A DNA stretch of 45,576 nt from a virus, in the IMG/VR virus record IMGVR_UViG_3300020457_000020, positions 1 through 45,576 of that record; one strand, 5' to 3'. The notes beneath the pieces are model-generated. The model saw only the letters and a program-made list of their open reading frames with translations, did not search any database and was not told where the DNA came from. Below, one piece after another: positions 118 through 19,216 of the stretch (position 1 is the first letter of the stretch; the number at the start of each line of letters is the position of its first letter). The position numbers and the translations under genes are program-made.

Positions 118-1803
118 CTACTCTCTACGAGATCTAGGGGCTACTTGTCCTATCATATTCCTAAGTTTCTTTTGTAAGTTCTTAGGATTGTATGCATCGT
201 CGGTTAGCCATAAGTCTCCGTCTATAACTTCTGCCTCTTCTTCCTGTCCATCTACTCTTATATAAGGAGTTAGATTAGTTTCTATATCTCCCATTTGAGC
301 TTTGTATAATCCTTCTCTTGTATTGATATCTGTCATCTCTTTAAAGAACTGTTGGCTGGACAACCAACCAAATAATACTAGACACATAACTAAATCATCA
401 TGATAACCCTCATCTGCTTGATAAGTGGCACCTTTTTCTGTGAATGTAGATATTTCATGTATTATATGTTCGTCAAATATCAATAACTTCTGTTCTTCTA
501 GTAAAGACTTGAATGCAAAACACCCTTGTCTTTTAACTTGTTTAGATGTTGTAACTCCATGTTTTGTTTTCTTACCAAAGCCTGGACTAATATATTGTTT
601 TTGTTGTTCGTTTACTGTTGCTAATATGTTTTCGTATTCTATTTCTTGGTGTAATATCTCTACTACTTGTTGTCCTATATCATTTATTTCTACTAAAACA
701 AAAGCATCATTGAAGTCTTTGCCTACTTTTCCTATAACATCTGGATATAACATAGGCGCTATTGTGTTGTCTCTATACTTTGCCACTACTTTATATGGCA
801 TCTCGGTTATGTCTACTACTATAAAAGCAGAGTAATCTCCGCCTATACCTCTGGAAGTATCTACTGTTATAGCGTAGTAATGTCCTTCTTGTGGCTCTTC
901 ATATATGTCTAGTCCTGCTTTTTCATATACAGGTGTTTTAGTAGATAGTGCTGCTATGGTTTGTGCGTTTATAAGTGTATTGGTAGAACCTAGGAACTCA
1001 CACATAACCTCCTGGTTAAATTTTACATTTCCTAGTAATTGTTTTTGTTCTTCTAACCACTTTTCATCTCTTCCAGGTATCTCATAGTAAGGTATAAACA
1101 TATTTGTAAAGCCGTTTACTCCTTCTAATGACTCATTCCAAAACTTCCAAAAGTGATTATAACCTAAAGGCGTAGATGTAAGTAGAATTTTTGTTGTCTC
1201 ACCAGCAGAAATAGTAGGATAAACAGAAGTAAAGAACTCATCTGCCACATTGTTAGGTATAATAGCTGCCTCATCAATATACAACCAGTTTACAGATTTA
1301 CCCCTAATGGCTGCTGCTGTGGTTGCTGCTGTTAATACTTTACTATTGTTTTCTAGTTCTACGTCTCCCTTATTCCAAGTCTTAACACCTTGTTGCATCC
1401 ATATAGGTAAGTTTTCATACATGATTTGATATCTGTTTAGAACTTCTCTGGCTGCTGCTGACTTGTTAGCCATAATAGCTACTGTCTTATCTTCTTCAAA
1501 TATAGTGTAATGTAAGATACAAGCTGCTGATGTTACTGTTTTACCTTGTTGTCTGCCTTCCATTAACACCACACGTCTGTTATTCATTATACATTCTACT
1601 TTCTCTTTTTGGCAGTCGTATAACTTAAATGGTTGCAGACCTTTATCCAATGTAATAATCTTTACATAGTTTTCTATAAAATATACAGGATCATCCTTAC
1701 ACTTTATATACTCTTTTATCTCTTCTTCTGAGAAATCATGTTGATATGCTAACGGTTTAAGGTTAGGATTACCATGATAACTATTTCCTTCAGCTTGGGT
1801 CAT
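118..1803 (-). CDS. gp17: Terminase large subunit (ATPase/nuclease, T4 gp17)
   Basis: This is the packaging motor that cuts concatemeric DNA and pumps it into the prohead, docked on the portal. At 561 residues it is close to T4 gp17 (610). The N-terminal ATPase shows Walker A GRQQGKT (about residues 83-89), Walker B LYIDE (about 174-178) and the coupling motif TSTP (about 209-212). The C-terminal RNase-H-like nuclease shows the acidic triad: D315 in the VDTSRG segment, E372 and the HDD near 468-470. The ATG overlaps the end of gp16 by 14 bases, so the two subunits are translationally linked. It is the last gene of the 13-14-15-16-17 series, as in T4. Confidence 0.97.
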   Translation of the reverse strand: MTQAEGNSYHGNPNLKPLAYQHDFSEEEIKEYIKCKDDPVYFIENYVKIITLDKGLQPFKLYDCQKEKVECIMNNRRVVLMEGRQQGKTVTSAACILHYTIFEEDKTVAIMANKSAAAREVLNRYQIMYENLPIWMQQGVKTWNKGDVELENNSKVLTAATTAAAIRGKSVNWLYIDEAAIIPNNVADEFFTSVYPTISAGETTKILLTSTPLGYNHFWKFWNESLEGVNGFTNMFIPYYEIPGRDEKWLEEQKQLLGNVKFNQEVMCEFLGSTNTLINAQTIAALSTKTPVYEKAGLDIYEEPQEGHYYAITVDTSRGIGGDYSAFIVVDITEMPYKVVAKYRDNTIAPMLYPDVIGKVGKDFNDAFVLVEINDIGQQVVEILHQEIEYENILATVNEQQKQYISPGFGKKTKHGVTTSKQVKRQGCFAFKSLLEEQKLLIFDEHIIHEISTFTEKGATYQADEGYHDDLVMCLVLFGWLSSQQFFKEMTDINTREGLYKAQMGDIETNLTPYIRVDGQEEEAEVIDGDLWLTDDAYNPKNLQKKLRNMIGQVAPRSRRE

Positions 1804-2290
1804 CTGGTGTTACGTCTATTGTTCTTTGTTCTTCGTCCTTTACTGCTTTCAGTAAATCTTTTGTGCTACCTACAAATAAATTGTTCTGTGTTTTTATTGT
1901 GCCTTTAGTTGTTTTGTCTTGTGTAACTCTTTTATGTCTTTCATGAACGTCTATCATGTCTTTTGCTGTGTCTTGTAAGTTCTTTATAAGTGCTCCTGCA
2001 ACTTCATAAGCACGAGGTTGATCTGAATTACGAGCTATGTGCATTATACCTTGTATAGCCTCATCGTTATATGCTTCTGCCTGTTTAAGAATAGATCTAG
2101 CATATTGTAAATCCTCTTCTTGTTGTTTTCTTAATAAAGCGTCTTTATCTTCTTCTGACATATCTACGGCAGGTAATTGTCTTTCTTCTTGTGTCTTTTT
2201 TAAGTTTTCTTCTAATGCTTTTGTGACTTCTTTTGTATTGAACTTCTTATCTAAGTCTTCAAAAGGATTTTTATTGTTCGAACGTTTCAT
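1790..2290 (-). CDS. gp16: Terminase small subunit (T4 gp16)
   Basis: The small terminase subunit regulates the gp17 ATPase and recognises DNA for packaging. The protein has 166 residues, against 164 in T4. The diagnostic central segment contains RAYEVAGALIKNLQD, closely matching the T4 gp16 oligomerisation core (RAFEVAGQLIKNL). The N-terminus is charged and helical. The start overlaps the end of gp15 by 20 bases and the end overlaps gp17 by 14 bases, so it sits in a tightly coupled minus-strand operon. Identity rests on the core motif, the length and its position directly before gp17. Confidence 0.93.
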   Translation of the reverse strand: MKRSNNKNPFEDLDKKFNTKEVTKALEENLKKTQEERQLPAVDMSEEDKDALLRKQQEEDLQYARSILKQAEAYNDEAIQGIMHIARNSDQPRAYEVAGALIKNLQDTAKDMIDVHERHKRVTQDKTTKGTIKTQNNLFVGSTKDLLKAVKDEEQRTIDVTPDDPS

Positions 2291-3056
2291 CGAAATCCTC
2301 CAAGAACGTAAATGTATCTAGCGGTGTTGCCGAAGATGGATTGACACTAGCTGTTAATCTAGCTCTGTCATTTAACGTGCTTAAGGACAATGTAGGATCA
2401 TTATATATGTCTGCAATTGCTTTCTTAATAACACCTTGATTTGCCACGTTACTGTAAAAATTAAGCCTCATAGTAAAATTCAATGTCCATACTATACTTA
2501 ATCTATTGGCAAACTCACCTTCATATTCATCTTCATACGTTACGTTATCTAATGTTATTTTTATATCTCTTTTCAAACCAAGTTCTGGCAGATCATTAAT
2601 TGTTACATTAAAGTCTGGATTGAAGTATGGAATAATTTGTTCCACACATTGTAGGCCATCGTCTTGGTTTTTGGCAAAACAATACAGAGCTAAGTTCATG
2701 TTGTAAGGTGTAGAATTAAATGCTACTCTTACTGTATCTGCGTCGTCGCCTGTTCCAATGGCTTTATTCTTATTTATTATAGTTGTCTTTCTACTAGGAT
2801 CATACTGTATGCCTTGTATTTCAAAACCCATTCTAGGTAATGTAAGAGCTACTTCTCCCCTTGTTGTAGAGTCTGGCACCCTGGCAATTCTTGTTAAGAA
2901 CTTTTGTTTAGTAGAATATGCTAAAGGGACTCTTAAAGTCTGTGCTACAGCACCAGTGCTATCTTTACGTTCAATATTTATGTTATTAAATATAGTTCCA
3001 AAGGCTATAACTGCCTTCCTTATATGTGAGTGGTAAAATGACTTATCCTTAAACAT
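2271..3056 (-). CDS. gp15: Tail sheath terminator / proximal tail completion (T4 gp15)
   Basis: T4 gp15 caps the completed tail tube and sheath and joins the tail to the head. This 261-residue protein (T4 272) keeps the family's features: an N-terminal MF..FYHSHIRKA segment, an early RVPLAYSTKQKFL (T4 RVPITYASKEHF), the LPRMGFEI strand (T4 LPRINLHL) and the mid-protein EQIIPYFNPDFN (T4 EQILPYFQPHFN) followed by KRDIKITL. It follows gp14 with a one-base gap and overlaps gp16. The family assignment is secure from these colinear motifs. Confidence 0.95.
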   Translation of the reverse strand: MFKDKSFYHSHIRKAVIAFGTIFNNINIERKDSTGAVAQTLRVPLAYSTKQKFLTRIARVPDSTTRGEVALTLPRMGFEIQGIQYDPSRKTTIINKNKAIGTGDDADTVRVAFNSTPYNMNLALYCFAKNQDDGLQCVEQIIPYFNPDFNVTINDLPELGLKRDIKITLDNVTYEDEYEGEFANRLSIVWTLNFTMRLNFYSNVANQGVIKKAIADIYNDPTLSLSTLNDRARLTASVNPSSATPLDTFTFLEDFDETFEQ

Positions 3057-3057
3057 T

Positions 3058-3804
3058 CTATGCCCCTATCTCTCCAAATGGATTTTTCTCACTAAAGTCT
3101 AATATGCCTTCTAATGTAACTAAACTATCAAAGTCTGCATTGTCTATAGGTTCTGATTTACCTACTGAATAATCTTCTGTAATTATAGAGCCGTTTCTTT
3201 CGTTTAGTAATAGAGAACCATTTTCTAATTTTACTTGGAACTCTAACATGTCTTGAGAGTATGCTGTTTCTATGGCATCTATAGTTGAAATACCTGTATC
3301 CAAATCCTCTGAACTGTATTCGAATAGTTCACAAACCAATCTATAAACATATATTTGGTTAAGTTGATAGAAAGGATTTTGAAAGTCTACATACTTAATC
3401 TCGAATAGAGATTTTGTTTTTTCTAAGTATATAAGATCGCCTTCTGAAGGTCTTAGTTGTTGTGTAAATGTTCCGCCGCTGGTTTGAACCATGTCCTCCC
3501 AACGTCTTTTTGCTAATACAAAAGTTGCTTGGTCTCTAACTTCTAAACCAAAACGTGTAAATATATCTCCCTGTCCTTCGTAACCATTAACATTATCAAG
3601 ATACATTTCAATAGGATATGCTTGTGTGAACTTAGATAGTTCATCCTCGTCAAATATTGTGTCTTTGTTTACTAAGGTTCTAGGCAAGTAATAGGTATCG
3701 TGTCCATATATTTTAAGACTTTCTATTACAAGATCTTCTACTAATCGTTGTTCGTTAGTTGTGCCTTGTCCGTTGCCTGATTGGAAATAAAAATTTGTTG
3801 GCAT
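3058..3804 (-). CDS. gp14: Neck protein (T4 gp14)
   Basis: With gp13, T4 gp14 forms the head-completion or neck ring that gates the portal after packaging. This 248-residue protein (T4 256) has the typical N-terminal NFYFQSGN...EQRLVEDLVIESLKIYG and the YYLPRTLVNKDTIFDED segment, in which a conserved arginine-threonine leads into the acidic DEDEL stretch. The end (NPFGEIGA) is the short ordered tail usual in this family. It lies between gp13 and gp15 with gaps of 4 and 1 bases. Confidence 0.95.
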   Translation of the reverse strand: MPTNFYFQSGNGQGTTNEQRLVEDLVIESLKIYGHDTYYLPRTLVNKDTIFDEDELSKFTQAYPIEMYLDNVNGYEGQGDIFTRFGLEVRDQATFVLAKRRWEDMVQTSGGTFTQQLRPSEGDLIYLEKTKSLFEIKYVDFQNPFYQLNQIYVYRLVCELFEYSSEDLDTGISTIDAIETAYSQDMLEFQVKLENGSLLLNERNGSIITEDYSVGKSEPIDNADFDSLVTLEGILDFSEKNPFGEIGA

Positions 3805-4788: not shown

Positions 4789-6285
4789 CTAGTTAAGTTT
4801 TGTTCCTGCTGCGTTGTATATAGCTGTTCCTGTAATTGTTGGTGTTGCTCCTTCTCCAGAGTTGTTAGCTAATGTTATACCATCGCCTGCTACTAAAGAA
4901 CCGACATAATTACCTGTTGTTTGTGTGCTTAATGCAACTGCATTGTTAGCAATTTGATCTGAACCTACAGCATCATCTGCTATCATTGATTGTTCTACTG
5001 CGTCCGATGCAATAGTAAGAGCTATTGCTACGTTTGCACTTCCGTCTACAGAACCTGAGCCTGTAGCATCTCCTGTAAAGGATAGTGTTCTAGCATTTGT
5101 CCACTTAGCTGCTGAACCTGTTGTGTTTTGGTTAAGTGTTCCTATTACTAGATCTATTGTTCCGTCTGCGTCTTGATAAGTAGCTGTAATACCTGTTTCA
5201 GTATTACTAGAGAACATAGCACCTACTATGTCTTGTATTTCCTCATCTGTTTGATCTGCTGTAGCATTTGCCTCTATACCATCTAGTTTACTACCATCTG
5301 TTGCTACATCTCTACCATCTACAGTTCCTGTTACAGATATATTACCTCCAACTCCCATGTTGCCACTGAAGTCTCCATTTGTTCCTGTAATTTCTGCTGC
5401 TACTAAATCTGCTGCTGTAATTGTAAGATCGCCTGTGCTTGCTCCTGTAAATGAACCTGTTCCTAATATGAAACTATCTGCACTTTCGTCCCAACCCATA
5501 AATGCGTTGTCTGAACTTCCTCTTTCAAGAACAATACCCATATCATTTGCTGGTGTTCCTGTTGTTCCGTTTCCTAACTCAATCAATCTGTCTGTTATTG
5601 TAGAGTTGGTTGAGTCTAATGTTGTGGTTGTTCCGTTTACATCTAGATTACCTGTAATAGTTACATTACCTGTTGCTGCTACATTAGCAAATGTAACGTT
5701 ACTAGATGTTGCTACTGCTTGTCCAATACTAATTTCGCCTGAACTGATACCTACTCCTGTTCCTGCTGATATATGTGCTCTTACTTCTGAAGCACTTGGA
5801 CCTGTGTATGTAATAACTCCTGTAGAACTATTGTAAGCAAGAGAACCATCTCCGCCTGAATCTGTTACACTAATAGAGCCTCTTGCATCAGAGTCTGCGT
5901 ATTGTGTTATTGAACTTGATAATGTTGTTCCTGATATAGCAAGTCCTGAACCTATATCTAAAAATGCTGTTGCTCCAGCACTATCGTCCCAGAATACTAT
6001 CTGGTCATCATTTGGATCTGATAAACTTTCTAATCCTAAATGACTGAGTGCGAGTGTTGCGCTACCACTTGTTGCACCACCTGATAATCCTGTTCCTGCT
6101 ACGACTGCCGTAATGTCTCCAGATGTTATTTCTGAAAACTTGGCAATTCTAATACCTCCAGCAGTGGAGCCATCATGAACTCTTAATGTATCTAAAGTAG
6201 TATCAACGGTAACCTCGCCAGCTGCTCCCGTAAAGGAGTTATGCTGTGTTGTTGTTCCCCTTCTCCATTGAACCTGTGTTGGCAT
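4789..6285 (-). CDS. Fibre or decoration protein with an Mtd-like N-terminal module
   Basis: This is a 498-residue virion protein. The first 50 residues (QWRRGTTTQHNSFTGAAGEV, then DTLRVHDGSTAGG) match the N-terminal module of phage tropism determinants and many marine fibre proteins. The rest is a low-complexity beta-rich series (Gly, Thr, Ser, Asn, Ala), including a NVTITGNLDVNGTTTT unit also found in the 6840-8267 product. It ends AIYNAAGTKLN, close to the ending of the 19218-19718 product (IIFNSSGTRVN). A good AGGAGAAAATAATG start is visible. Probably a trimeric fibre or head/neck appendage; the attachment site is not determinable. Confidence 0.75.
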   Translation of the reverse strand: MPTQVQWRRGTTTQHNSFTGAAGEVTVDTTLDTLRVHDGSTAGGIRIAKFSEITSGDITAVVAGTGLSGGATSGSATLALSHLGLESLSDPNDDQIVFWDDSAGATAFLDIGSGLAISGTTLSSSITQYADSDARGSISVTDSGGDGSLAYNSSTGVITYTGPSASEVRAHISAGTGVGISSGEISIGQAVATSSNVTFANVAATGNVTITGNLDVNGTTTTLDSTNSTITDRLIELGNGTTGTPANDMGIVLERGSSDNAFMGWDESADSFILGTGSFTGASTGDLTITAADLVAAEITGTNGDFSGNMGVGGNISVTGTVDGRDVATDGSKLDGIEANATADQTDEEIQDIVGAMFSSNTETGITATYQDADGTIDLVIGTLNQNTTGSAAKWTNARTLSFTGDATGSGSVDGSANVAIALTIASDAVEQSMIADDAVGSDQIANNAVALSTQTTGNYVGSLVAGDGITLANNSGEGATPTITGTAIYNAAGTKLN

Positions 6286-6839: not shown

Positions 6840-8267
6840 TTAGTATGTTCCTCCGTCGATGGAACCAAATTCAGGAGTTCCGCCTGAGCCTGCTTGTAGG
6901 ATTTGTCCTTCTGTGCCTGCTGCTGTAACTTGTAAAGCTCCTGTGCCGTTACCATAGATAATACCTTTACTTGTAAATGTGCCTGCGCCTGTTCCACCGT
7001 CTGCAACTACTAGATCTGTAATGCCTGTAATTGTTCCGCCTGTAATAGTAGCACTAGATGATTCTATATTTGCTACCAATGTGCCAACAGTATAACCTGT
7101 GCCACCTGTGTTTACAGTTGTTGTTGGTTCAGCTTGTAAGTCTTTAAATAACTTCCATTTACCTGAGTCTGAGGCATCTCTAAAGAAACCTGAATATAAG
7201 TCTGTAGAACCTGAAGTATCATATAAACCATATAAACCAATATCCACAGCGTCTGCTGAGTCATTGCCGTTTGCTAATATGATAAGTGGGTCTGCAACAC
7301 TTAAAGTTGTTGAGTTTACAGTAGTGGTTGTTCCACTTACTGTTAGGTTACCTGCAATAGTTACATTGTTAGGTAATCCTATGTTAATTTTATTGTCTGA
7401 AACAGTTGTTTCAATTTCGTTGGCTGTTCCTTCGAAAGTTAAAGTGTCTGTTCCGATTGTAACAGTATCATTAGAACCACTATCTGCTGCAATGGTTAAT
7501 GCTGAACTGATACTTGCTGTTGAAGCTGCTGTAATACGTCCTGTTGCGTCTACTGTTAATACAGGAATAGCTGTTGATCCACCATATGATCCTGCTGTAA
7601 CTGCTGTATTATCTAGATCAATGGATAATCCATTGCCAGAAGCAGTAGTTGTGATACCTGTATCACCTGTAATTGCAAAAGTTTCTGCTTGTTCAATAAC
7701 TCCTGAGCCTGAATCACCACTAAAGTCTAAGTCAAACGAAGCTGCTGCTGTAGCATCTACATAGGCTTTGACTGATTGTTGTGAAGGGACTTTAGTAGCA
7801 CTATTACTTGCCATATTATCTTCATCTACAAATACACCTGAAGATGAGAATGTAGACTCGTCTAATAATTTGTGCCAAGCGTTGGCATGTGAACCATAAA
7901 ATCTACCTGTTCCGTGAACGTGTGCAAACATACCGTGGTATGTAGAAGCACTAGGTAAGTCTCCTTCGGCAGAATACATATTGCCGAACAGAATTTTATT
8001 TACAATTATGTCCCCGTTAGAATCTCTCTTTACGAGTTTTGACGCAGTGTTTGCGTTGGTTGCTCCATCAATAATGTCTGTATAGAACTTACCACCTATC
8101 TTTTGTATGACTTCACTAGAACCAGAGTCTATTGAAGAAATATAAAGTATGGCGGAAGCTCCGTCACCGGATCTATCCTCAGCATACGCTAATTCGCCTT
8201 CAACCAAATCAGAAGCTGCTGGGGCTGCTGACCCTGTGCTTCTTTTAATCTGAATAGTTGTTGACAT
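6840..8267 (-). CDS. Tail-fibre-like virion protein
   Basis: This 475-residue structural protein has an N-terminal attachment module (TIQIKRSTGSAAPAASDLVE, then GELAYAED). It includes the fibre motif SNSATKVPSQQSVKAYVDAT (about residues 152-171), widespread in phage fibres. A NLTVSGTTTTVNSTTLSVAD unit parallels one in the 498-residue neighbour. The C-terminus is Gly/Thr-rich and ends SIDGGTY, like the AIDGGTF of the 76-residue product next to it. The start has an AGGAGAAAATAATG ribosome site. Probably a host-contacting or attachment fibre. Confidence 0.78.
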   Translation of the reverse strand: MSTTIQIKRSTGSAAPAASDLVEGELAYAEDRSGDGASAILYISSIDSGSSEVIQKIGGKFYTDIIDGATNANTASKLVKRDSNGDIIVNKILFGNMYSAEGDLPSASTYHGMFAHVHGTGRFYGSHANAWHKLLDESTFSSSGVFVDEDNMASNSATKVPSQQSVKAYVDATAAASFDLDFSGDSGSGVIEQAETFAITGDTGITTTASGNGLSIDLDNTAVTAGSYGGSTAIPVLTVDATGRITAASTASISSALTIAADSGSNDTVTIGTDTLTFEGTANEIETTVSDNKINIGLPNNVTIAGNLTVSGTTTTVNSTTLSVADPLIILANGNDSADAVDIGLYGLYDTSGSTDLYSGFFRDASDSGKWKLFKDLQAEPTTTVNTGGTGYTVGTLVANIESSSATITGGTITGITDLVVADGGTGAGTFTSKGIIYGNGTGALQVTAAGTEGQILQAGSGGTPEFGSIDGGTY

Positions 8268-8931: not shown

Positions 8932-9597
8932 ATGAAAACTATCTTGACTTTAAAATATGGCGATAAATATGACGCCAATGACGTGAATTCCATATACGAA
9001 CATACGGAAGGCAAATACAATTACGTTTGCGTTACGGATGATCCTAAAGATTTACACCCAGATATAGGCATTCTTTATTTAGAACACGAGCCTGCTGACA
9101 ATATGGAGAAGTTAAAGTTGTTTCAATTAAACGATTTAGGCACTATATTATACCTAGATTTAGATGTAAGAATACAAAAACCTATAGATCATTTGTTTGA
9201 TTACTACCAAGGTAAACCTATTATATGTTTTACTTGGTGGAAAGATAGGGGAGAAAAAGTAGGAATACCTTTACATGACTTCCCTTACCATGATAAATAT
9301 CCTTTATCTAATTATAATTCTAGTGTAATGATGTGGGAAGATATGTCAGAAGTATGGCGTAGATATAATACTAACCAAGAATTTTATAATGTTAAGTATC
9401 CTTTTGGAGACGATACATTCTTATGGCATGAAGGATTTACATTTCAACACTTTCCAGACAATGAGATATATTCTTATATGTTTGCAGGAAGAGAGTATAG
9501 GCCTGAATATACAATAGCACTTTTAAATGGACAGGACAGACACCCGGAGATAGCAAAAGAATATGATGAACTTTGTATGCATCAAGTGGGGCACTAA
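8932..9597 (+). CDS. Glycosyltransferase-like protein, paralogue 1 of the island
   Basis: A 221-residue soluble protein with a GT-A-type layout. The N-terminal strand TILTLKYGDKYDANDVNSIY is the family hallmark here (K-x-G-x-K/R-Y...VN.LY). YVCVTDDPKDL follows, then the metal/sugar-nucleotide DxD in YLDLDVRIQ (D76, D78) and NSSVMMW. Its C-terminal part differs most from the other three copies. It opens the plus-strand island after a strong AAGGAG site, and its last 35 bases overlap the start of paralogue 2 in another frame. Donor and acceptor sugars are unknown. The family resembles small phage and bacterial nucleotide-sugar transferases. Confidence 0.8.
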   Translation: MKTILTLKYGDKYDANDVNSIYEHTEGKYNYVCVTDDPKDLHPDIGILYLEHEPADNMEKLKLFQLNDLGTILYLDLDVRIQKPIDHLFDYYQGKPIICFTWWKDRGEKVGIPLHDFPYHDKYPLSNYNSSVMMWEDMSEVWRRYNTNQEFYNVKYPFGDDTFLWHEGFTFQHFPDNEIYSYMFAGREYRPEYTIALLNGQDRHPEIAKEYDELCMHQVGH

Positions 9598-10339
9598 ATA
9601 CCAGCCACACTATGTAAATAATCTATATAGTATGATTCAAAAGAATTATACACGAGATTTTACGTTTACATGTTTTACTGACGACCCTAAAGGTTTGAAG
9701 TGTGATACAAAACCTATTCCAGATATAGAACCTTTACATCCTAAATTTTGGTTTGGTAAAGAAAAGTATTGTTGGGATAGAGCTAAATTTTTAGTATTCA
9801 ATTCACACAATTGGTTAGGCTATGATGACAAGTGGTGTTATTTAGACTTAGATGTAATTATACAAAACAATATAGATGACTTATATGAACTTGCATTGAA
9901 ACCTAGAATGATATATACAAAGTGGGATAATCCAGATAACATACATCATAGACTGTTTATTGATATAAGAGGAACACAATTTAATTCTAGTATGATGTGT
10001 TGGAATAGAGATCAATGTGAACATATATTCTGGGAAGCCTTACAAGAAGAACAACAAATATTTAGAACGTTCTTTAAAGGCACAGATAATTATCACTTCT
10101 GGAGGCAACGAGACTTCTGGACTAACATTCCATATGATTGGGTGTATAGTTATAACCGAGGCAAATCACATCCTGATGATTTGGAGACACATAAATATAG
10201 AAAAGAATGTAAAATTTGTTTGTTTAATGTAGACAATACACCAAACAACCAGGGACAAATTAAAATTGATGAATTACAAGATGAAGAACTTTTGAGAATA
10301 TGGCATGATAATCCTAGTAGCAAATCTGTTAGACAATAA
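9563..10339 (+). CDS. Glycosyltransferase-like protein, paralogue 2
   Basis: 258 residues, with two possible adjacent ATG starts (9563 and 9566). It begins NFVCIKWGTKYQPHYVNNLY, then TCFTDDPKGL, CWDRAKFLVFNSHNW and the DxD motif YLDLDVIIQNNI (D95, D97). Later come FNSSMMCWNRDQ, GTDNYHFW and YSYNRGKSHPDDLETHKYR. The C-terminal block is shared almost word for word with paralogue 3, so these two arose by duplication. The start lies 35 bases inside paralogue 1, and the 3' end overlaps the next gene by 35 bases. A cytoplasmic transferase is inferred; the substrate cannot be assigned. Confidence 0.82.
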   Translation: MMNFVCIKWGTKYQPHYVNNLYSMIQKNYTRDFTFTCFTDDPKGLKCDTKPIPDIEPLHPKFWFGKEKYCWDRAKFLVFNSHNWLGYDDKWCYLDLDVIIQNNIDDLYELALKPRMIYTKWDNPDNIHHRLFIDIRGTQFNSSMMCWNRDQCEHIFWEALQEEQQIFRTFFKGTDNYHFWRQRDFWTNIPYDWVYSYNRGKSHPDDLETHKYRKECKICLFNVDNTPNNQGQIKIDELQDEELLRIWHDNPSSKSVRQ

Positions 10340-11771
10340 TTATAGCCAAACACAAATCAATGCGTTATACACGCAGGCTAAGAATCAAATAGAAGACCCG
10401 TTCGAGTTCTGGGTATTTACGTCAGACGAAGAGTGTCGTAACGAACAAAAGAATAAAGGTTATTTAGATGAGATATTGTTTGATGTGCCTAAGTATGGAG
10501 AGGATTGGATTGAAATAGATCTAATGCAGAAAACAAAGAAGGGCGACTCTTTGTTATTTGTTACTCCAAACTGTATTCTAAATAACATAAGCGTCATAGA
10601 GACTTATAAGACCAACAGTAGGATTAGACTGTCAGACGGTAATCTTTGTTATAATATTTTCCATAATAATAAAGTAGAACAATTATTGAAAGAATGGGAA
10701 GAAAGAGAAGACGAATTATTGTATGAATATGATGCTTTCCATAATTGGAATATGTTATCAGATACTGCATTACCTTTCCTACAAGACTCTACATCTGAAT
10801 ATCCAGAAAAATTAGAGGGAGATGTTATCGCCTTACCACAATGGTATGATGATTTTACACAAGAAGAAATAGACTCTATGTATAATAAGGAAACAGATCT
10901 ATATCCTTACTTACCACAAAAAGTAGAAATGGAGTTGAATGAAACAGGCGTATTGTTTGATGATGTGAAAGAAGCCTTCAATCCAGATTTTCTACTAAAG
11001 GCGAAGCTAAGAAGAATTAAAATTGTAGGAGAAGAACCTACACTCAATCCTGATGTAATAGACATCATACATTACTTTATAAAAGAATGGGTAATTAGTG
11101 TGGACATAGAATCTAATGGAGATACACACGATAAGATATGGTGGACTAATATAGGAAACTTACTAAAAGAACTAGGTAATGTAACATTCAATATAAACAC
11201 AGGTAATCCAGACAAAAGAATATTAGAACATGCTAAGGCTCTCATAGATGTAGGTTGTAGAGTGTTTTGGAGTTATACACATACAAATCAACTAGACAAT
11301 GACATACAGAAAGCTAAAAGACTATGTAAACAACACAAATTCTCAGGTTTTGTTTACGATAATAAAGTTCCAGAAGAGAAACAACCTATAAACAAAAAGG
11401 TTAAAGTAGATCTTCCAGACTATAAACTAATCGAATTGGAGACTCTAGAAACAAGGATTCAAGACGACATATATAAAGAGAGAAAAATAAAATTTTATCC
11501 TCATATAAAATGCGAGGGTAAAGTAAACAATCAGTTTTATTTAAGTTCAGAAGGTAATGTTTTTCCATGTAAACATATTGCCTTAACTATTAGAACAGCT
11601 AATGATAGTCCTGAACATGTTACAAAAATTTTATATGACTGGGATAAAAACAATATAAATAATTTTTCCTTAGAAGATATTTTTGTAAACGACTTCTACA
11701 AAGGCTATTTTAATAACTTATTAAAACTGAACCCAGGAATAATACATGATGAACAAGGTGGAATATGTTAA
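10305..11771 (+). CDS. Fusion: degenerate glycosyltransferase domain plus radical-SAM-like domain without its Fe-S cysteines
   Basis: 488 residues. The N-terminal part (about 1-180) follows the island's transferase pattern: a first strand MIILVANLLDNNYSQ, INALYTQAK, FWVFTSDEE, then LLFVTPNCILNNI where the paralogues have YLDLDVIIQNNI. The DxD is therefore lost. From about 205 it changes to a radical-SAM layout: KVEMELNETGVLFDD, RRIKIVGEEPTLNPDVIDII (a GGEP-like SAM-binding turn), IESNG, and a C-terminal SPASM/twitch-like segment C403...YLSSEGNVFPC422. No CxxxCxxC cluster exists: there is no cysteine between 115 and 318. Start supported by alignment to the paralogues. Probably a non-catalytic or repurposed scaffold; the radical-SAM origin is inference. 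Confidence 0.7.
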   Translation: MIILVANLLDNNYSQTQINALYTQAKNQIEDPFEFWVFTSDEECRNEQKNKGYLDEILFDVPKYGEDWIEIDLMQKTKKGDSLLFVTPNCILNNISVIETYKTNSRIRLSDGNLCYNIFHNNKVEQLLKEWEEREDELLYEYDAFHNWNMLSDTALPFLQDSTSEYPEKLEGDVIALPQWYDDFTQEEIDSMYNKETDLYPYLPQKVEMELNETGVLFDDVKEAFNPDFLLKAKLRRIKIVGEEPTLNPDVIDIIHYFIKEWVISVDIESNGDTHDKIWWTNIGNLLKELGNVTFNINTGNPDKRILEHAKALIDVGCRVFWSYTHTNQLDNDIQKAKRLCKQHKFSGFVYDNKVPEEKQPINKKVKVDLPDYKLIELETLETRIQDDIYKERKIKFYPHIKCEGKVNNQFYLSSEGNVFPCKHIALTIRTANDSPEHVTKILYDWDKNNINNFSLEDIFVNDFYKGYFNNLLKLNPGIIHDEQGGIC

Positions 11772-11980
11772 AAATAAATACAGGTATCGTAATACAAGGC
11801 AAGTTTGATAAACATGATACTTACATACAACAAATAAAAGAATCCAGTTTCACTACACTAATCGTTGAAGCGCCTTTAGGCACTGAATACGATAACAAGT
11901 GTATGGAGTTGGTTTCAGAATTAGCCTCGCAAGGATTTGCATATGGCGAAAAATATGTTATTGCAAGGGGCAGGGAATGA
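11765..11980 (+). CDS. 71-residue unknown in the glycosyltransferase island
   Basis: The ATG at 11765 follows AAGGTGGA and overlaps the previous stop by seven bases. The end shares ATGA with paralogue 3, so it is part of the translation chain and likely real. It begins MLKINTGIVIQGKFDKHD; the GIVIQG strand followed by TLIVEAPLGTEYDNKC faintly recalls the first strands of WavE-like or other GT-A transferases, which would make it a remnant or a small partner. This is a weak resemblance. No membrane segment or catalytic motif is seen. Confidence 0.6.
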   Translation: MLKINTGIVIQGKFDKHDTYIQQIKESSFTTLIVEAPLGTEYDNKCMELVSELASQGFAYGEKYVIARGRE

Positions 11981-12789
11981 GAGTAAATATAGTCTGTAGC
12001 AAATGGGGAGATAGATATGGTCCACACTTTGTCAACCGTCTTAAGAATATGGCTAGAAGGCATACTGATCCTAAACATGACTTCCATTTTTATTGTTATA
12101 CAGATGATGCCGAAGGGCTGGATGAAGATGTTAATGTTATACCATTTCCAGACATCGATACCATCCATCCTAAATATTGGTTCAGGACTGATGACTTTAA
12201 GTATGGCATGGCTAGATGCTGGGATAGGCCTAAAACAATGGTCTTTAACACTCACAATTTTGCAGCAGATAAGCCGACGGGACGCTTCGTCTTCCTTGAT
12301 CTGGACGTAATTATACAGAACGACATAGAGCCTTTACTGACCTATAATATGGAAAGACCTACAAAATTAAAAAGTTGGTGGCAAGACCCGCGCCCGATGA
12401 AGAGTCGGAGATTTAAATTAGCACACGGAGCATATACTAATGGCAGTTGCCAAGTATGGTCCGACGATCAAGCAGAATGTATATGGCATGATGTCTTAAA
12501 ACATAAAGAAAAGATATGGTTTACATATACAGATGGAACAGATAATTATCATAGTTGGCGTTGGGGTGATTTCGGAAAGAAACTCTGGGATCATTTCCCT
12601 AGCGATTATGCCTACTCTTACAATAGAGGCAGAAGCTGGGACGACGATGATTTAGAAACAGAAATATACAGAGAAACACCAATACTCTGTGTTTTCAATA
12701 TAGACTTGTTACCGTTTGAAGACGCAACAAGAGGACAAGTTAAACAAGAACAATTAGTAGATCCGAGGTTATTAGCACATTGGCAATGA
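11977..12789 (+). CDS. Glycosyltransferase-like protein, paralogue 3
   Basis: 270 residues from the ATG at 11977, which overlaps the previous stop as ATGA; a longer frame upstream lacks the family start. It begins VNIVCSKWGDRYGPHFVNRL, then CYTDDAEGL, CWDRPKTMVFNTHNF, the DxD in FLDLDVIIQNDI (D108, D110), GTDNYHSWRWGDF and YSYNRGRSWDDDDLETEIYR. It is the closest relative of paralogue 2. It has somewhat more GC-rich codons than its neighbours in places (for example around 12265-12420), which could reflect a separate origin of this copy. Activity is inferred from fold and DxD only. Confidence 0.82.
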   Translation: MRVNIVCSKWGDRYGPHFVNRLKNMARRHTDPKHDFHFYCYTDDAEGLDEDVNVIPFPDIDTIHPKYWFRTDDFKYGMARCWDRPKTMVFNTHNFAADKPTGRFVFLDLDVIIQNDIEPLLTYNMERPTKLKSWWQDPRPMKSRRFKLAHGAYTNGSCQVWSDDQAECIWHDVLKHKEKIWFTYTDGTDNYHSWRWGDFGKKLWDHFPSDYAYSYNRGRSWDDDDLETEIYRETPILCVFNIDLLPFEDATRGQVKQEQLVDPRLLAHWQ

Positions 12790-13460
12790 ACATATATACA
12801 GTCAAGTGGGGCAGTAAGTATTCTGCCAAACATGTAAACAAGTTATATGAATCTTGTTGTGATTATACATCTACGGATTTTAAATTTTATTGTTTGACAG
12901 AAAATCCAAAAGGATTAGATGAGAATATAAATGTTATACCACTACCTAAAGAAAACAAATTAGAAAAGTGGTGGAACAAAATGTATCTATTTGATGATAA
13001 TATTGTAAGACAAAAAGGTGAGAATTTATTCTTTGACTTAGATATTATTATACAAAAGAATATAGATGACATTGTAAACTTTGATCCTGAGGACTGCTTA
13101 TGTTTTGGCCAAACACATTGGCACGATTTAGTAACACAGGCAAAAGAAACAGAACATGTTCCTCATAGATATACAGATTTAAATTCTAGTATATTAAGAT
13201 GGAACGATAACTTAGATAAAGAGAACATAACTCTTTATTTTAAAACACACAAAGAAAAGATTCTATGGTATTATAGAGGTATAGATAACTTCTTTATGCA
13301 CAAAGGTGTAGCAAGAATAAAGTATTTTCCTATAGGCTGGTTCTATAGTTACAACCACGGTTATATTTATCCTCACGATACTGAAAAACATGTTTTCAGA
13401 AAGATACCATACGTTTGTTTATTTGATTCAATGGGAAGAAAAGAAGATGTTAAATTTTAA
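12786..13460 (+). CDS. Glycosyltransferase-like protein, paralogue 4
   Basis: 224 residues from the ATG at 12786, chosen because it overlaps the paralogue 3 stop as ATGA; a TTG at 12780 is the alternative. It opens MNIYTVKWGSKYSAKHVNKL and continues YCLTENPKGLDENINVIPLP. The DxD is FFDLDIIIQKNI, and the later markers are LNSSILRWN, RGIDNFF and FYSYNHGYIYPHDTEKHVFR. It lacks the CWDR block of paralogues 2 and 3. The last 14 bases overlap the methyltransferase-like gene. Confidence 0.82.
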   Translation: MNIYTVKWGSKYSAKHVNKLYESCCDYTSTDFKFYCLTENPKGLDENINVIPLPKENKLEKWWNKMYLFDDNIVRQKGENLFFDLDIIIQKNIDDIVNFDPEDCLCFGQTHWHDLVTQAKETEHVPHRYTDLNSSILRWNDNLDKENITLYFKTHKEKILWYYRGIDNFFMHKGVARIKYFPIGWFYSYNHGYIYPHDTEKHVFRKIPYVCLFDSMGRKEDVKF

Positions 13461-15776: not shown

Positions 15777-16442
15777 TTAGGATAAATGTTCTGCATCTTC
15801 GCCTGAAATATCTTCAACCATGTTACGCCACATGTCCAAATGAGGTATAACAAAGCCAAAAGTAAGGCGAGGTTCGTATGTTCCTGCACAATGATAGTAA
15901 ACTTTCTCAGGTTCTCTGCCCCTGCCATAGTATCCTACTTTACAACACCAACCTCCTGGGTCTTGCATGTGGACTACATCATTAATAGTTCTATCTAAGT
16001 GAGGTTTTCTATACTTAAAAAACCCAGTGCCCTTTTCAGTATAAGAAAGTAAAATATTATAACCAGAAGCGTTCCAGTTATTATGCCAGCCCATAAAGCC
16101 ACCTTTAGGGTAATATACATGAACTGCCTGGTATGCTGCTCCTGTAAAAGAGATAACTTCTTCTGTGATTTCTTCATATTTGCTATTGAAGGCCTCTCCA
16201 TGTTTGCCCATGTTTAGATCGTAAGCATAGGAAACTTCTGGATATCCTTCATGTTCTCCGTCTTTATCCACAATCTCCTTTAGATAATTATCACTACAAT
16301 AATATTCTAAGTCATGTTCTTTAGGATAGTTTGGATGTTCTAGAGCTAGTTTATCTAATTCTGATAAGTCTTGTTTGAAAAACCAATCAGAGTAGGGCGT
16401 CAGTATGTCTAGTAATTCTTGAGATATTTCGGTTTTTATCAT
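15777..16442 (-). CDS. Iron/2-oxoglutarate oxygenase-like protein with an H-x-N site
   Basis: 221 residues. The double-stranded beta-helix core appears at GGFMGWHNNWNASGYNILLS, followed by GTGFFKYRKP, GGWCCKVGYYG, KVYYHCAG and RLTFGFVIP. The metal ligands expected in this fold are H120, the residue two on (N122 instead of Asp/Glu) and H184; R192 would bind 2-oxoglutarate. Marine phage relatives with a GWHTN motif are known to me as 2OG-Fe(II) oxygenases, so H-x-N is probably a family trait rather than a lesion. There is no clear ribosome site before the ATG. Substrate unknown. Confidence 0.7.
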   Translation of the reverse strand: MIKTEISQELLDILTPYSDWFFKQDLSELDKLALEHPNYPKEHDLEYYCSDNYLKEIVDKDGEHEGYPEVSYAYDLNMGKHGEAFNSKYEEITEEVISFTGAAYQAVHVYYPKGGFMGWHNNWNASGYNILLSYTEKGTGFFKYRKPHLDRTINDVVHMQDPGGWCCKVGYYGRGREPEKVYYHCAGTYEPRLTFGFVIPHLDMWRNMVEDISGEDAEHLS

Positions 16443-16522: not shown

Positions 16523-16615
16523 ATGAAAAAGGTATGGAACGATTTTCATAGGATAATGAAATCTGGTAGACTCCACAAGGTGTGTAAAGCAGCTGGAGTA
16601 TCTAACAAAGATTAA
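16523..16615 (+). CDS. 30-residue basic small ORF
   Basis: The ATG at 16523 is preceded by AAGGAGTTACAG, a strong ribosome site, and by a dense promoter-like region. The product begins MKKVWNDFHRIMKSGRLHKV and ends with an AGVSNKD segment reminiscent of the recognition part of a helix-turn-helix. It is strongly basic. Its stop codon overlaps the stop of the opposite glycosyltransferase gene. It could be a tiny regulator or a remnant; the good ribosome site argues that it is translated. Confidence 0.5.
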   Translation: MKKVWNDFHRIMKSGRLHKVCKAAGVSNKD

Positions 16616-17376
16616 CTTTTCTTATGAATTACATGTTGAGGAATTGTGTAGTGATAAAAGACACGTTCCTCACCATCTAACTCTTCTTCTAAGTAACCAT
16701 TAACAAAGTTCCATCTACAATGCAAATCTTCTCCCCATTTTACTCCGTGTTTAGAGTAATTAAGTAATTTCCACATAGTAAAAGTATCCCACTTTCTTAC
16801 ATCCTCAGGATAGTTTCCTATATCATTTTTTTTATCTTGTTGATATACAAATTCACCATACCAACTATTCATTAATTTTAATGTTTTCTTATTGTTTCTA
16901 TATAGGAACATGCCACAATGTGCAGTCATTTCTTCTGTGTTTGTAAGTTTAGTTATCTTAGCATTGTAAGGTCTTATTTTTGTAAATAATAGATCTTTGT
17001 TTTTAGGAAGTTGTTTGAATATATCTTTTACGTCTTCATGTTCACAAACCATGTCAGCATCTAAATAACAAGTTATGCCTTTGTATGGTGTTTGTGCTAA
17101 TGCCCATAGTTTAGCTCTTATATGATTAGGCACTTCCCATGTTACAATCCAATCTGCATGGTTCCAATCTGTAGGTTTTACCCATTCTTCTTTAGAACAA
17201 TATACAGTTACATGAGCATCTGGATCAAATAGTTTTATAGACTCTGCACATTCAATTGCTTTTCTATAAAATATTTCGTGGACTGAACCTACTAATAAAA
17301 AGCCGTCTTTAGGAAATGTTATGTCTATGTCTGGATGACCTGCCCAATCAGGTCTACTGGATTTTTCCTTCGTCAC
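16612..17376 (-). CDS. Glycosyltransferase (nucleotide-sugar, GT-A fold)
   Basis: 254 residues from GTG at 17376, placed after GGAGAACTTGC. Unlike the 8932-13460 array, it resembles a GT8-like transferase: FLLVGSVHEIFYRKAIECAE opens the fold, CYLDADMVCEHEDVKDIF holds the DxD, and HCGMFLYRN and WGEDLHCRWN follow. The start overlaps the upstream gene by 23 bases. The location next to the Tyr-Gly repeat fibre makes fibre glycosylation an attractive but untested idea; host surface glycan or nucleobase modification are alternatives. Confidence 0.75.
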   Translation of the reverse strand: MTKEKSSRPDWAGHPDIDITFPKDGFLLVGSVHEIFYRKAIECAESIKLFDPDAHVTVYCSKEEWVKPTDWNHADWIVTWEVPNHIRAKLWALAQTPYKGITCYLDADMVCEHEDVKDIFKQLPKNKDLLFTKIRPYNAKITKLTNTEEMTAHCGMFLYRNNKKTLKLMNSWYGEFVYQQDKKNDIGNYPEDVRKWDTFTMWKLLNYSKHGVKWGEDLHCRWNFVNGYLEEELDGEERVFYHYTIPQHVIHKKS

Positions 17377-17848
17377 GCAAGTTCTCCATCAATAATATAG
17401 TTGTATAGGCTCCTACTTCCATAGGTGTTTTTGCTTTACGAATTAGTCTTTTTAATTCTGTGTTTTTAGATTCTTTAACTGCTGATATTTCAAACGATTC
17501 TAGTTTAGCATTGAATAACATTTCTTGTCTGGCTCTAGTTTTTTGGCTTTCAATTCTTTGATTACGTTTCTTAATATTTTCATCTCTTCGTTGAATGCCT
17601 TCTTGTGTATTAGCGTCTAGTTGTTCTTCACCAAACTCTTCTATTATTCTTTTATAGTCTGGATTCTGTCCATCGTTATCTTGTATAGAAGCTGTAGCTC
17701 TTGTGCCATTAGGATATTCAATAGTAGTCATAATATGTTTAGCATCCTTATTAGACCAATAAGGAAAAACAAATTTGTATTTAGGTTTTGTTTCTGGTTT
17801 TGCTTGTTCTACTTGTAGATCGAGATCAATCTTCTTTTTCTTTGCCAT
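17354..17848 (-). CDS. 164-residue charged hypothetical protein
   Basis: The N-terminus MAKKKKIDLDLQVEQ is lysine-rich; YKFVFPYWSNKDAKHIMTTI follows, and then a long charged, probably coiled-coil helix (NIKKRNQRIESQKTRARQEM). Similar small proteins sit near fibre genes in marine T4-like phages, but I cannot name a function. The ATG follows GGAGATATT and a late promoter lies just upstream, so it is a late gene and may be virion-associated or an assembly factor. Confidence 0.6.
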   Translation of the reverse strand: MAKKKKIDLDLQVEQAKPETKPKYKFVFPYWSNKDAKHIMTTIEYPNGTRATASIQDNDGQNPDYKRIIEEFGEEQLDANTQEGIQRRDENIKKRNQRIESQKTRARQEMLFNAKLESFEISAVKESKNTELKRLIRKAKTPMEVGAYTTILLMENLRDEGKIQ

Positions 17849-17884: not shown

Positions 17885-19216
17885 TTAAGCAGTTCTTAAC
17901 CACAGTTTAACCGAAGCTACATCTTCTTCTGAGGACAATACAGTATCACCTGAATATGTTCCTGTGTAGTCTCCTGAGTATGTGCCTGTATAGTAACCTG
18001 TGTATGTTCCAGAATATGTGCCTGCGTATGCTGAGGTTCCTGTGTAGTAACCTGTATAAGCTCCTGTGTATGTGCCTGCATATGTTCCTGAATAGTTTTT
18101 AGCACCTGTATAATATCCTGTGTAGAAACCTGTATATGTTCCTGAATAACTGCCTGAGAAGAAACCACCTGAGAAACCTGAGAAGAATCTTTGATACCCG
18201 CCTGTATATGTTCCTGTATATCCGCCTGAATATGTTCCTGCGTATGCTGAGGTTCCTGTATAAGTTCCAGTATAGTTTCCTGTATAATCTCCTGAGTATG
18301 TGCCTGCATAGTTTTTGGCACCTGTATAAGCTCCTGTGTAAGAGCCTGTGTAGTTACCAGCATATGCTCCTGCGTAACCACCTGTGTAGGTTCCTGTATA
18401 GTTTTGTGCGCCTACTTGTTGTCTTGTATCTGTAAAAGCATCTCCCATCTGTGTCCAGGTTCCTGTCTCAGAAGGAGCTCCACTTTGTAATTTGTATGTT
18501 CCAACACCTTGTGTTGTAGCAAAGTTTTCTACGATTCTATTTCTAAAGTTAGGAACTACTTGTTCCATTTCAGCTACTGACATTTCTTGTATGCCGTTAG
18601 TTCCTTCTACTCTGCAGGGTTTGAAGTTAGAATTAGCGCTAGTTGTAGCTGCTGTTTTTTGCCAAATATATTTTGTTACTGAATCGCCGTCGACTTGTGT
18701 ATCGACTAATGTATATCTTTGTGTCCATGTGCCACCACTTGGTGCACTTGCTGATAAATGATATTGTCCAACAGTATAGTCTCCTAATGCTACCATATCT
18801 GCTATGACTTTATCTATAATATCTGTGTCTAGTTCGGTGTCTGTAAATTCGTTTATACCAACATTACCTGAGGTTTCGTAACCTACCATTCTGTTAGTAA
18901 TACTTTCTGACGCTGCTCCTGTTACCTGTTTAGCTGTGTAAACATTTACATTAGAAGTTGCACCGTCTGTTGGGTGACTTCCTACTGCGTCGTCTCTTTT
19001 TGTGTCTGTGATACTTCCAATTGTAGTCCCAGCTCCAGAACCATCTGTTGTTATATTTAGTTCTGCTGTTCCTGAACCATTAGTATTATCTGCAAAGTCT
19101 TTAGTGATTATTGCTGATAAATATTGTTCGATTTCAGTATCCGTCATTTCTTGCAAACCTTGGAAGTTTGCTGAGCTAACTGGATATGCCGATGCCTTAA
19201 TTCGAAGTGGTCTCAT
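17885..19216 (-). CDS. Fibre protein with a long Tyr-x-Gly-Thr repeat C-terminus
   Basis: 443 residues. The first 270 are a fibre-like region with repeated motifs QGLQEMTDTEIEQYL and NGIQEMSVAEMEQVV. From about residue 270 to 428 the chain is built of four-residue units of the form YTGx, YSGx or YAGx, more than thirty in total, with aromatic breaks such as YQRFFSGFSGGFFSG. A short charged end (SSEEDVASVKLWLRTA) follows. Such a repeat could form a beta-structured adhesive stalk. It lies next to a glycosyltransferase gene, and its many Tyr and Thr hydroxyls are possible attachment points. Host-contact role inferred. Confidence 0.72.
   Translation of the reverse strand: MRPLRIKASAYPVSSANFQGLQEMTDTEIEQYLSAIITKDFADNTNGSGTAELNITTDGSGAGTTIGSITDTKRDDAVGSHPTDGATSNVNVYTAKQVTGAASESITNRMVGYETSGNVGINEFTDTELDTDIIDKVIADMVALGDYTVGQYHLSASAPSGGTWTQRYTLVDTQVDGDSVTKYIWQKTAATTSANSNFKPCRVEGTNGIQEMSVAEMEQVVPNFRNRIVENFATTQGVGTYKLQSGAPSETGTWTQMGDAFTDTRQQVGAQNYTGTYTGGYAGAYAGNYTGSYTGAYTGAKNYAGTYSGDYTGNYTGTYTGTSAYAGTYSGGYTGTYTGGYQRFFSGFSGGFFSGSYSGTYTGFYTGYYTGAKNYSGTYAGTYTGAYTGYYTGTSAYAGTYSGTYTGYYTGTYSGDYTGTYSGDTVLSSEEDVASVKLWLRTA
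17932..18410 (-). repeat. 12-base coding repeats of the YTG fibre
   Basis: About 480 bases made of imperfect 12-base units (on the plus strand roughly CCTGTATATGTT), each coding one Tyr-x-Gly-x tetrapeptide. Larger duplicated blocks are visible, for instance two copies of a segment that includes TSAYAGTYSG. Such arrays can expand or shrink by slippage or recombination without breaking the frame. Confidence 0.8.

Follow-up and report, generated by a model that had tools for sequence, protein, structure and literature searches.

A self-complementary tyrosine-glycine array in an unnamed family of marine phage proteins that may build very long hairpin fibres

The stretch of DNA analyzed here (the window) is the whole 45.6-kb virus record IMGVR_UViG_3300020457_000020 (45,576 nucleotides), whose terminase finds its matches among T4-like phages, with cyanophages ranking first. 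The gene on which this work centers, P0001, lies two small genes away from P0005, which has a 29% match to the VrlC protein of Pelagibacter phage HTVC008M, and the same neighbours are found in related loci (Table 1). The tail fibres of most pelagimyophages are the genes downstream of VrlC (PMC7029224), and the position of P0001 fits such a tail-fibre region after the baseplate genes. Elsewhere on the minus strand, the frame at 4789-6285 contains the major tropism determinant N-terminal domain (Mtd_N, E 9e-14) and probably encodes another fibre or receptor-binding protein, the frame at 6840-8267 shares a stretch of 45 residues, 64% identical, with CDS197 of phage C48C1, annotated as a tail fiber protein, and P0005 itself has a weak collagen match at residues 1324-1353, under the cut-off.

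Table 1. Features of the P0001 locus, in window coordinates (res, residues of P0001)
Feature	Positions	Strand	Basis or remark
P0005, VrlC-like baseplate protein, 2,075 aa, upstream of P0001	19971..26198	-	marks the tail-fibre position
P0001, putative hairpin fibre protein gene, 443 aa	17885..19216	-	homologues in 64 viral loci
N-terminal module 1, res 1-108	18893..19216	-	AlphaFold2 pLDDT about 87-97; profile match to module 3, E 8e-6
N-terminal module 2, res 109-200	18617..18892	-	AlphaFold2 model; profile match to array-excised module 3
Module 3, first part, ending in the outgoing base strand, res 201-272	18401..18616	-	AlphaFold2, profile match
Predicted hairpin arm 1, res 273-347	18176..18400	-	mirror pairing
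K-knob AKN, arm 1, res 300-302	18311..18319	-	47 residues from centre
S-knob TSA, arm 1, res 322-324	18245..18253	-	25 residues from centre
Tip, YQRFFSGFSGGFF, res 341-353	18158..18196	-	mirror centre at res 348; aligned tip Gly in 38/39 rows
Predicted hairpin arm 2, res 348-423	17948..18175	-	mirror pairing
K-knob AKN, arm 2, res 372-374	18095..18103	-	mirrors arm 1 S-knob at 25
S-knob TSA, arm 2, res 394-396	18029..18037	-	mirrors arm 1 K-knob at 47
C-terminal return strand completing module 3, DTVLSSEEDVASVKLWLRTA, res 424-443	17888..17947	-	pLDDT 86-96
P0003, small conserved cassette gene	17354..17848	-	downstream in first-family loci reaching far enough; C48C1 CDS202, E 2e-14
P0004, putative GT-A-like glycosyltransferase, cassette gene	16612..17376	-	DxD, weak Pfam GT2/GT8, linkage
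P0006, conserved unnamed cassette gene	15777..16442	-	without family match; linkage

The Tyr-Gly array of P0001 occupies residues 272-423 (17948-18403) and is composed of 26% Gly, 24% Tyr and 22% Thr. It holds 35 units of the type [YF][TSAV]G, where 10,000 residue shuffles yield 4.3 on average and 12 at most, a result that confirms the regular repeat described in an earlier note on this DNA. The interval assigned to the repeat in that note, 17885-18410, covers the array and also takes in the C-terminal strand and the stop. Its YxGx units were likewise correctly recognized, whereas the FFSGF element that it read as a break is the middle of the array, and a second type of unit, six residues long (YTGAKN, YTGTSA), went unmentioned. 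The distance from one aromatic residue to the next is four in 25 of 42 segments, and the autocorrelation reaches 0.51 at lag 4 and 0.45 at lag 22 but is only 0.05 at lag 3, unlike collagen, as had been stated. Codons for Tyr, Gly and Ala differ among the units, so the array is not a fresh DNA tandem; these differences, together with the excess of synonymous over non-synonymous changes in array codons in all eight pairs compared, rule out a recent tandem origin, and the mirrored layout described below rules out a shaft or a simple directional tandem repeat. An alternative-frame ORF of 154 aa with a GTG start lies inside the array (17917-18381, minus strand) and is most likely a by-product of the repeated codons. 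Membership in Gly-zipper_YMGG (PF13441) was rejected, as the P0001 score of 27.2 bits falls under the curated cut-off of 28.9 and was taken to reflect composition. Searches of Pfam, PHROGs and NCBIfam returned no name for the array family, comparison with solved structures gave none for the array either, and queries on its features, host group and names found no description of the array among open-licence PubMed Central papers.

Scanning with the P0001 protein yielded the 64 loci of Table 1, a scan with the alignment gave 200 confirmed stretches, 80 of which were kept, and a DNA pattern for four consecutive units found at least 119 stretches; in bacterial genome contigs 101 stretches matched a pattern and none was confirmed as a relative. 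We collected 155 distinct array-bearing open frames of up to 3,708 residues. The N-terminal 262 residues of P0001 are matched by 133 of them, and several of the other 22 are 5′-incomplete. Complete genes among the first 64 relatives have from 3 to 78 units, so the repeat number, the constancy of which would have spoken against the earlier reading, does vary, and it changes equally in both halves of the array.

Folded back on itself at the FFSGFSGGFF tip, the P0001 array forms 37 aromatic-Gly pairs with no clashes and one bulge. The first set of relatives provided 43 distinct complete arrays, of which 37 entered a count of mirrored positions (L003, L006, L032, L033, L035 and L059 were dropped): among 2,485 positions, 1,103 are aromatic-Gly, nine aromatic-aromatic and none Gly-Gly. 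A broader analysis of 112 arrays, which left out proteins longer than 900 aa and identical arrays, found L003, L006, L032, L033 and L035 symmetric as well, and counted at most two ungapped clashes in 107 of the 112; more were found in L211 (668 aa, 13 clashes), L221 (683 aa, 6), L208 (561 aa, 5), L158 (847 aa, 4) and L227 (873 aa, 3). Two further arrays, L223 and L145, fail the ungapped mirror test and pair once one and two bulge residues, respectively, are admitted (22 pairs with no clashes, and 28 pairs with one clash). Pairing without gaps leaves 190 residues of L208 and 100 of L221 unpaired between the arms, so some hairpins may carry a domain at the tip.

Where an array keeps strictly to period 4 and has no knobs, an aromatic-Gly register arises in part trivially, and short arrays score little above shuffles. 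Period-4 stretches fit many registers, and the informative part is therefore whatever breaks the period. The six-residue units (YxG plus three residues, the knob) shift the phase by two, and in the 112 arrays 272 of 319 such units have a six-residue partner at the exact mirrored distance, against 41 expected; many of the remaining 47 have none because the search pattern bars Gly in the knob (TSG, TGT). Two main kinds of knob triplet occur, xK[NT] (Lys) and TS[AT] (Ser), and all 119 pairs made of these kinds in the 112 arrays are heterotypic, with 74 Lys-Ser and 45 Ser-Lys pairs and not a single Lys-Lys or Ser-Ser pair. Since the arrays are related, we also counted distinct knob patterns. In eight of them (KS/KS, SK/SK, KSKS/KSKS, KKSS/KKSS, KKS/KSS, KKKS/KSSS, S/K and KKSSKKK/SSSKKSS) all 27 pairs are mixed, a result reached by 19 of 200,000 type shuffles; two of the ten patterns were left out, as other triplets replace a knob in them and the arm counts are then unequal. 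Other lineages have other knobs, for example PAN opposite TAT. A β-solenoid or a stacked roll whose coil measures about 22 residues, in which the mirror pattern would be incidental, might explain the 22-residue super-period that is visible in many arrays and gives the lag-22 peak in P0001. Yet knobs are spaced by 10 residues in KKSS and KSKS arrays and by 22 in others, so that the coil length is not constant, and a solenoid predicts neither the mirrored placement nor the Lys-Ser complementarity nor the equal arms; we regard it as extremely unlikely.

The lengths of the two arms are tightly matched. Arm 1 spans 38-199 residues and arm 2 28-197 in 38 relatives, with r = 0.998, a slope of 1.02 and a difference of -2.5 ± 1.5 residues (n = 38 of 39; L056 was dropped because of a gap at the tip column). 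These lengths were taken from the alignment anchors W254, tip G347 and L438 alone and are independent of the mirror score. Particularly, L043 and L047, which are 96% identical over residues 1-250, differ by one 22-residue block per arm, the extra block in L043 being of the K type in arm 1 and of the S type in arm 2. As the arms are separate DNA stretches, we infer that such a paired gain would need at least two matched events.

The same rule extends to much larger proteins. In L226 (3,138 residues), residues 258-1585 and 1783-3110 form an ungapped pairing in which each arm has about 1,300 residues; its whole array gives 278 pairs and five clashes, and shifting the register by multiples of 4 worsens the count, although this is a metagenome contig with ambiguous residues and its length is provisional. 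Near residue 1684 of this ORF, at the hairpin tip, two cysteines about 18 residues apart could form a disulfide at the turn. The array of L158 has 117 pairs to four clashes and that of L045 (641 residues) 81 to none, while with single-residue bulges L217 reaches 283 to four and L256 92 to none; in L217, L221 and L208 a shift by multiples of 4 barely lowers the score, and the exact register is poorly determined. Eight further proteins from transferase loci, with YxRx units, gave mirror scores of 43-124 against shuffle maxima of 22-51 when Arg and Lys were allowed as partners. In the L264-L323 lineage YxRx and TRxRxST units replace many of the YxGx units, and the C-terminus reads TLYVRVA or similar. 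Two array genes stand side by side in L151, L158, L179, L184, L208, L211, L217, L221, L227, L249, L250 and L256, which suggests paired fibre subunits.

The remainder of P0001 indicates how the array is held. Module 2 and module 3 with the array cut out match each other in a profile comparison (E 1.7e-9), and the C-terminal KLWLRTA of P0001 aligns with the last strand of module 2; these alignments place the array, as an insertion, inside the terminal β-hairpin of module 3, which obliges the chain to return to its point of exit. AlphaFold2 gave high confidence to residues 1-277 and to the C-terminal strand (about 421-443), with model strands symmetric about residue 347 (E254-277 with E417-441, E315-335 with E357-377), those inside the array at low confidence. 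The ordered structure that the earlier note looked for was not obtained for the array itself, as the monomer pLDDT is below 50 in both models run, across 282-340 and 346-414 of P0001 and across 265-303 of the short-array relative L056, the modules of which are ordered. Foldseek returned no match at E ≤ 0.001 for either model, N-terminal modules included, and the best VIA-align likenesses of these modules, perforin-2 (Z 3.5) and T4 gp11 (Z 2.2 over 44 residues), were set aside.

The low array pLDDT and the high Gly and Tyr content would suit a disordered or low-complexity adhesive segment, comparable to a phase-separating linker without a fixed fold. However, the register is exact to the residue over hundreds of residues (278:5 in L226, 117:4 in L158), and this register and the paired block gains together require a fixed partner for each residue; the prevalence of synonymous changes in the array also speaks against disorder, which we consider very unlikely. 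The aromatic-ladder β structure put forward in the earlier note pointed in the right direction, except that the ladder would not run along a shaft: the outgoing Tyr faces the returning Gly.

P0001 is followed downstream by the other genes of its cassette, P0003, P0004 and P0006. Both Asp of the DxD of P0004 are invariant in 17 divergent members, and DxD is the metal/nucleotide-sugar motif of GT-A glycosyltransferases. The Pfam GT2 match of P0004 (E 0.008, 16.6 bits) falls under the cut-off of 23.3; among 24 members of its family the best GT2 match has E 0.0015 and the best GT8 match E 0.012, none over the curated cut-off, and a PDB sequence search with P0004 gave no match. The motifs of P0006 suggested a 2-oxoglutarate oxygenase, an assignment that we rejected because sequence searches against Pfam, NCBIfam, PHROGs and PDB did not back it. 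Of the 102 loci picked by array DNA alone, 30 have less than 2.5 kb of sequence downstream; the 72 with that length or more all contain the transferase and a P0006 relative within 5 kb downstream of the array on the same strand. The same two genes are downstream in 51 of 51 first-family loci (13 of the 64 not counted), a set that shares some contigs with the former. Conversely, an array gene is found upstream in 58 of the 59 transferase loci with at least 2 kb of upstream sequence (71 loci in all). The sole miss, L266, is explained by its short upstream sequence of 2.4 kb, since 2.3 kb separate the end of the array from the transferase in its relative L267. Among 50,697 GenBank phages, P0001, P0003, P0004 and P0006 match one record each, always phage C48C1, in which the homologues, CDS201-204, keep the order of the window. 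Of the earlier proposal that the tyrosine and threonine hydroxyls of the repeat are sugar acceptors, the part that named the transferase at 16612-17376 gains strong linkage support from these sequences, whereas for the separate plus-strand island, also proposed as a source, no link to P0001 emerged. That island (8932-13460) encodes several transferase-like proteins, one with a weak GT8 match under the cut-off, and a weak Radical_SAM match, again under the cut-off, lies inside it at 10305-11771.

In our reading P0001 is probably glycosylated, with P0004 as the putative transferase, and the protein is a likely target for a so far unexplained phage transferase. Transferases of pelagimyophage host-recognition islands are usually read as LPS modifiers (PMC7029224), and P0001 could by extension be a host-directed or secreted factor outside the virion, with the transferase acting on host surface sugars. 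We find this unlikely, considering that the gene is placed after VrlC and other baseplate genes, that the order of the cassette is kept from C48C1 to the window, and that the transferase follows the array in every one of the 72 array-selected loci with room for it.

Taken together, register, complementarity, matched knobs, equal arms, insertion point and gene linkage are properties of the sequences themselves. We judge it likely on these grounds that P0001 serves a T4-like marine myovirus as a subunit of its distal tail fibre or baseplate adhesin, folded as an out-and-back antiparallel β-ribbon. The three-module N-terminal domain would be the base, attached to the fibre or baseplate. The chain would leave the last hairpin of module 3 as one very long β-strand, turn at the aromatic tip, return in strict antiparallel register and finish module 3. 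The register would correspond to β-pairing, in which the aromatic residue of one arm covers the Gly of the other along the whole length (a tyrosine-glycine lock) and six-residue knobs, each pair made of one Lys and one Ser type, keep the arms in register. The fibre is probably trimeric, three chains packing their Tyr-Gly faces together, and this face would be buried by trimerisation by analogy with other phage fibres. The conserved aromatic tip may touch the host, and P0004 may add sugar to the outward Thr/Ser-rich face or to the tyrosines. Joint lengthening of both arms in evolution would make the reach of the fibre adjustable. A β-strand rises 0.33 nm per residue, and arms of about 1,300 residues would, if this is true, measure approximately 0.4 micrometre.

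Arm 1 might instead pair with arm 2 of a neighbouring chain in a trimer or ring. This reading overlaps with the one just given, since the sequence register is identical either way, and known phage fibre needles are trimers with interwoven chains; we give it an appreciable chance, distinctly under one half. A wider proposal is an entirely new kind of fibrous architecture in which a self-complementary β-ribbon follows pairing rules (aromatic with Gly, Lys knob with Ser knob) like those of a nucleic-acid hairpin, grows by matched blocks and receives a sugar coat from a linked transferase, and to this we tentatively assign slightly less than an even chance.

P0001 and its relatives make up an unnamed putative fibre family with a self-complementary sequence rule, and the sequences strongly support the architecture proposed for it. 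A self-complementary pattern in two halves is unusual for a protein and could give rise to virus fibres of great length. Prediction of long fibrous folds is usually hampered by not knowing which residues are partners; in this family the partner of nearly every residue can be read from the sequence itself, over tens to more than 1,000 residues, so the structure is directly testable. The family, widespread among marine phages and without a name in Pfam, PHROGs or NCBIfam, could supply design rules for β-ribbon fibres of chosen length, and it raises the evolutionary question of how matching blocks are gained in two distant segments of DNA.

Finally, we compared P0001 with known systems. The C48C1 homologue of P0001 (gene 201 of OQ984149, Kyanoviridae; 3,347 aa), deposited merely as a hypothetical protein, shares N-terminal homology of 29-31%, YxGx units, the four-gene cassette and mirrored arms of about 730 residues, with 121 pairs and four clashes when single-residue bulges are admitted; it differs in having YxRx and TRxRxST units and non-repeat inserts. 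Collagen-like phage fibres are similar in having a Gly-rich repeat within a structural protein, but the P0001 array has no Gly-x-y triplet and its periods are 4 and 6, not 3. In outer-membrane β-barrels, an aromatic ring lies over a Gly of the neighbouring β-strand and aids folding (PMC5542473). The likeness of this Tyr-Gly mortise-tenon to an aromatic opposite a Gly of the other strand involves no claim of homology, and a barrel has one or a few conserved pairs, whereas in P0001 (37 pairs) and its relatives (up to 278 in L226) such pairing would be the main design rule. Closest in topology is the T4 gp37 needle, which we take as an analogue rather than a relative; gp37 is absent among the sequence and fold matches of P0001, whose array is of low confidence in the models. 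In the needle, domain D10 comprises residues 811-881 plus 1010-1026, the chain exits the base and returns from the tip, and seven iron sites are bound by trimers of His (PMC6957217). By comparison with this D10/D11 region, the P0001 chain would also run out and back, with its C-terminus completing the base domain, and likely takes the same place in the virion. A metal-bound needle was discarded for P0001, as array residues 272-423 are without any His. What sets the P0001 family apart from gp37, besides the missing His, is arms of up to about 1,300 residues governed by a Tyr-Gly and Lys-Ser pairing rule.
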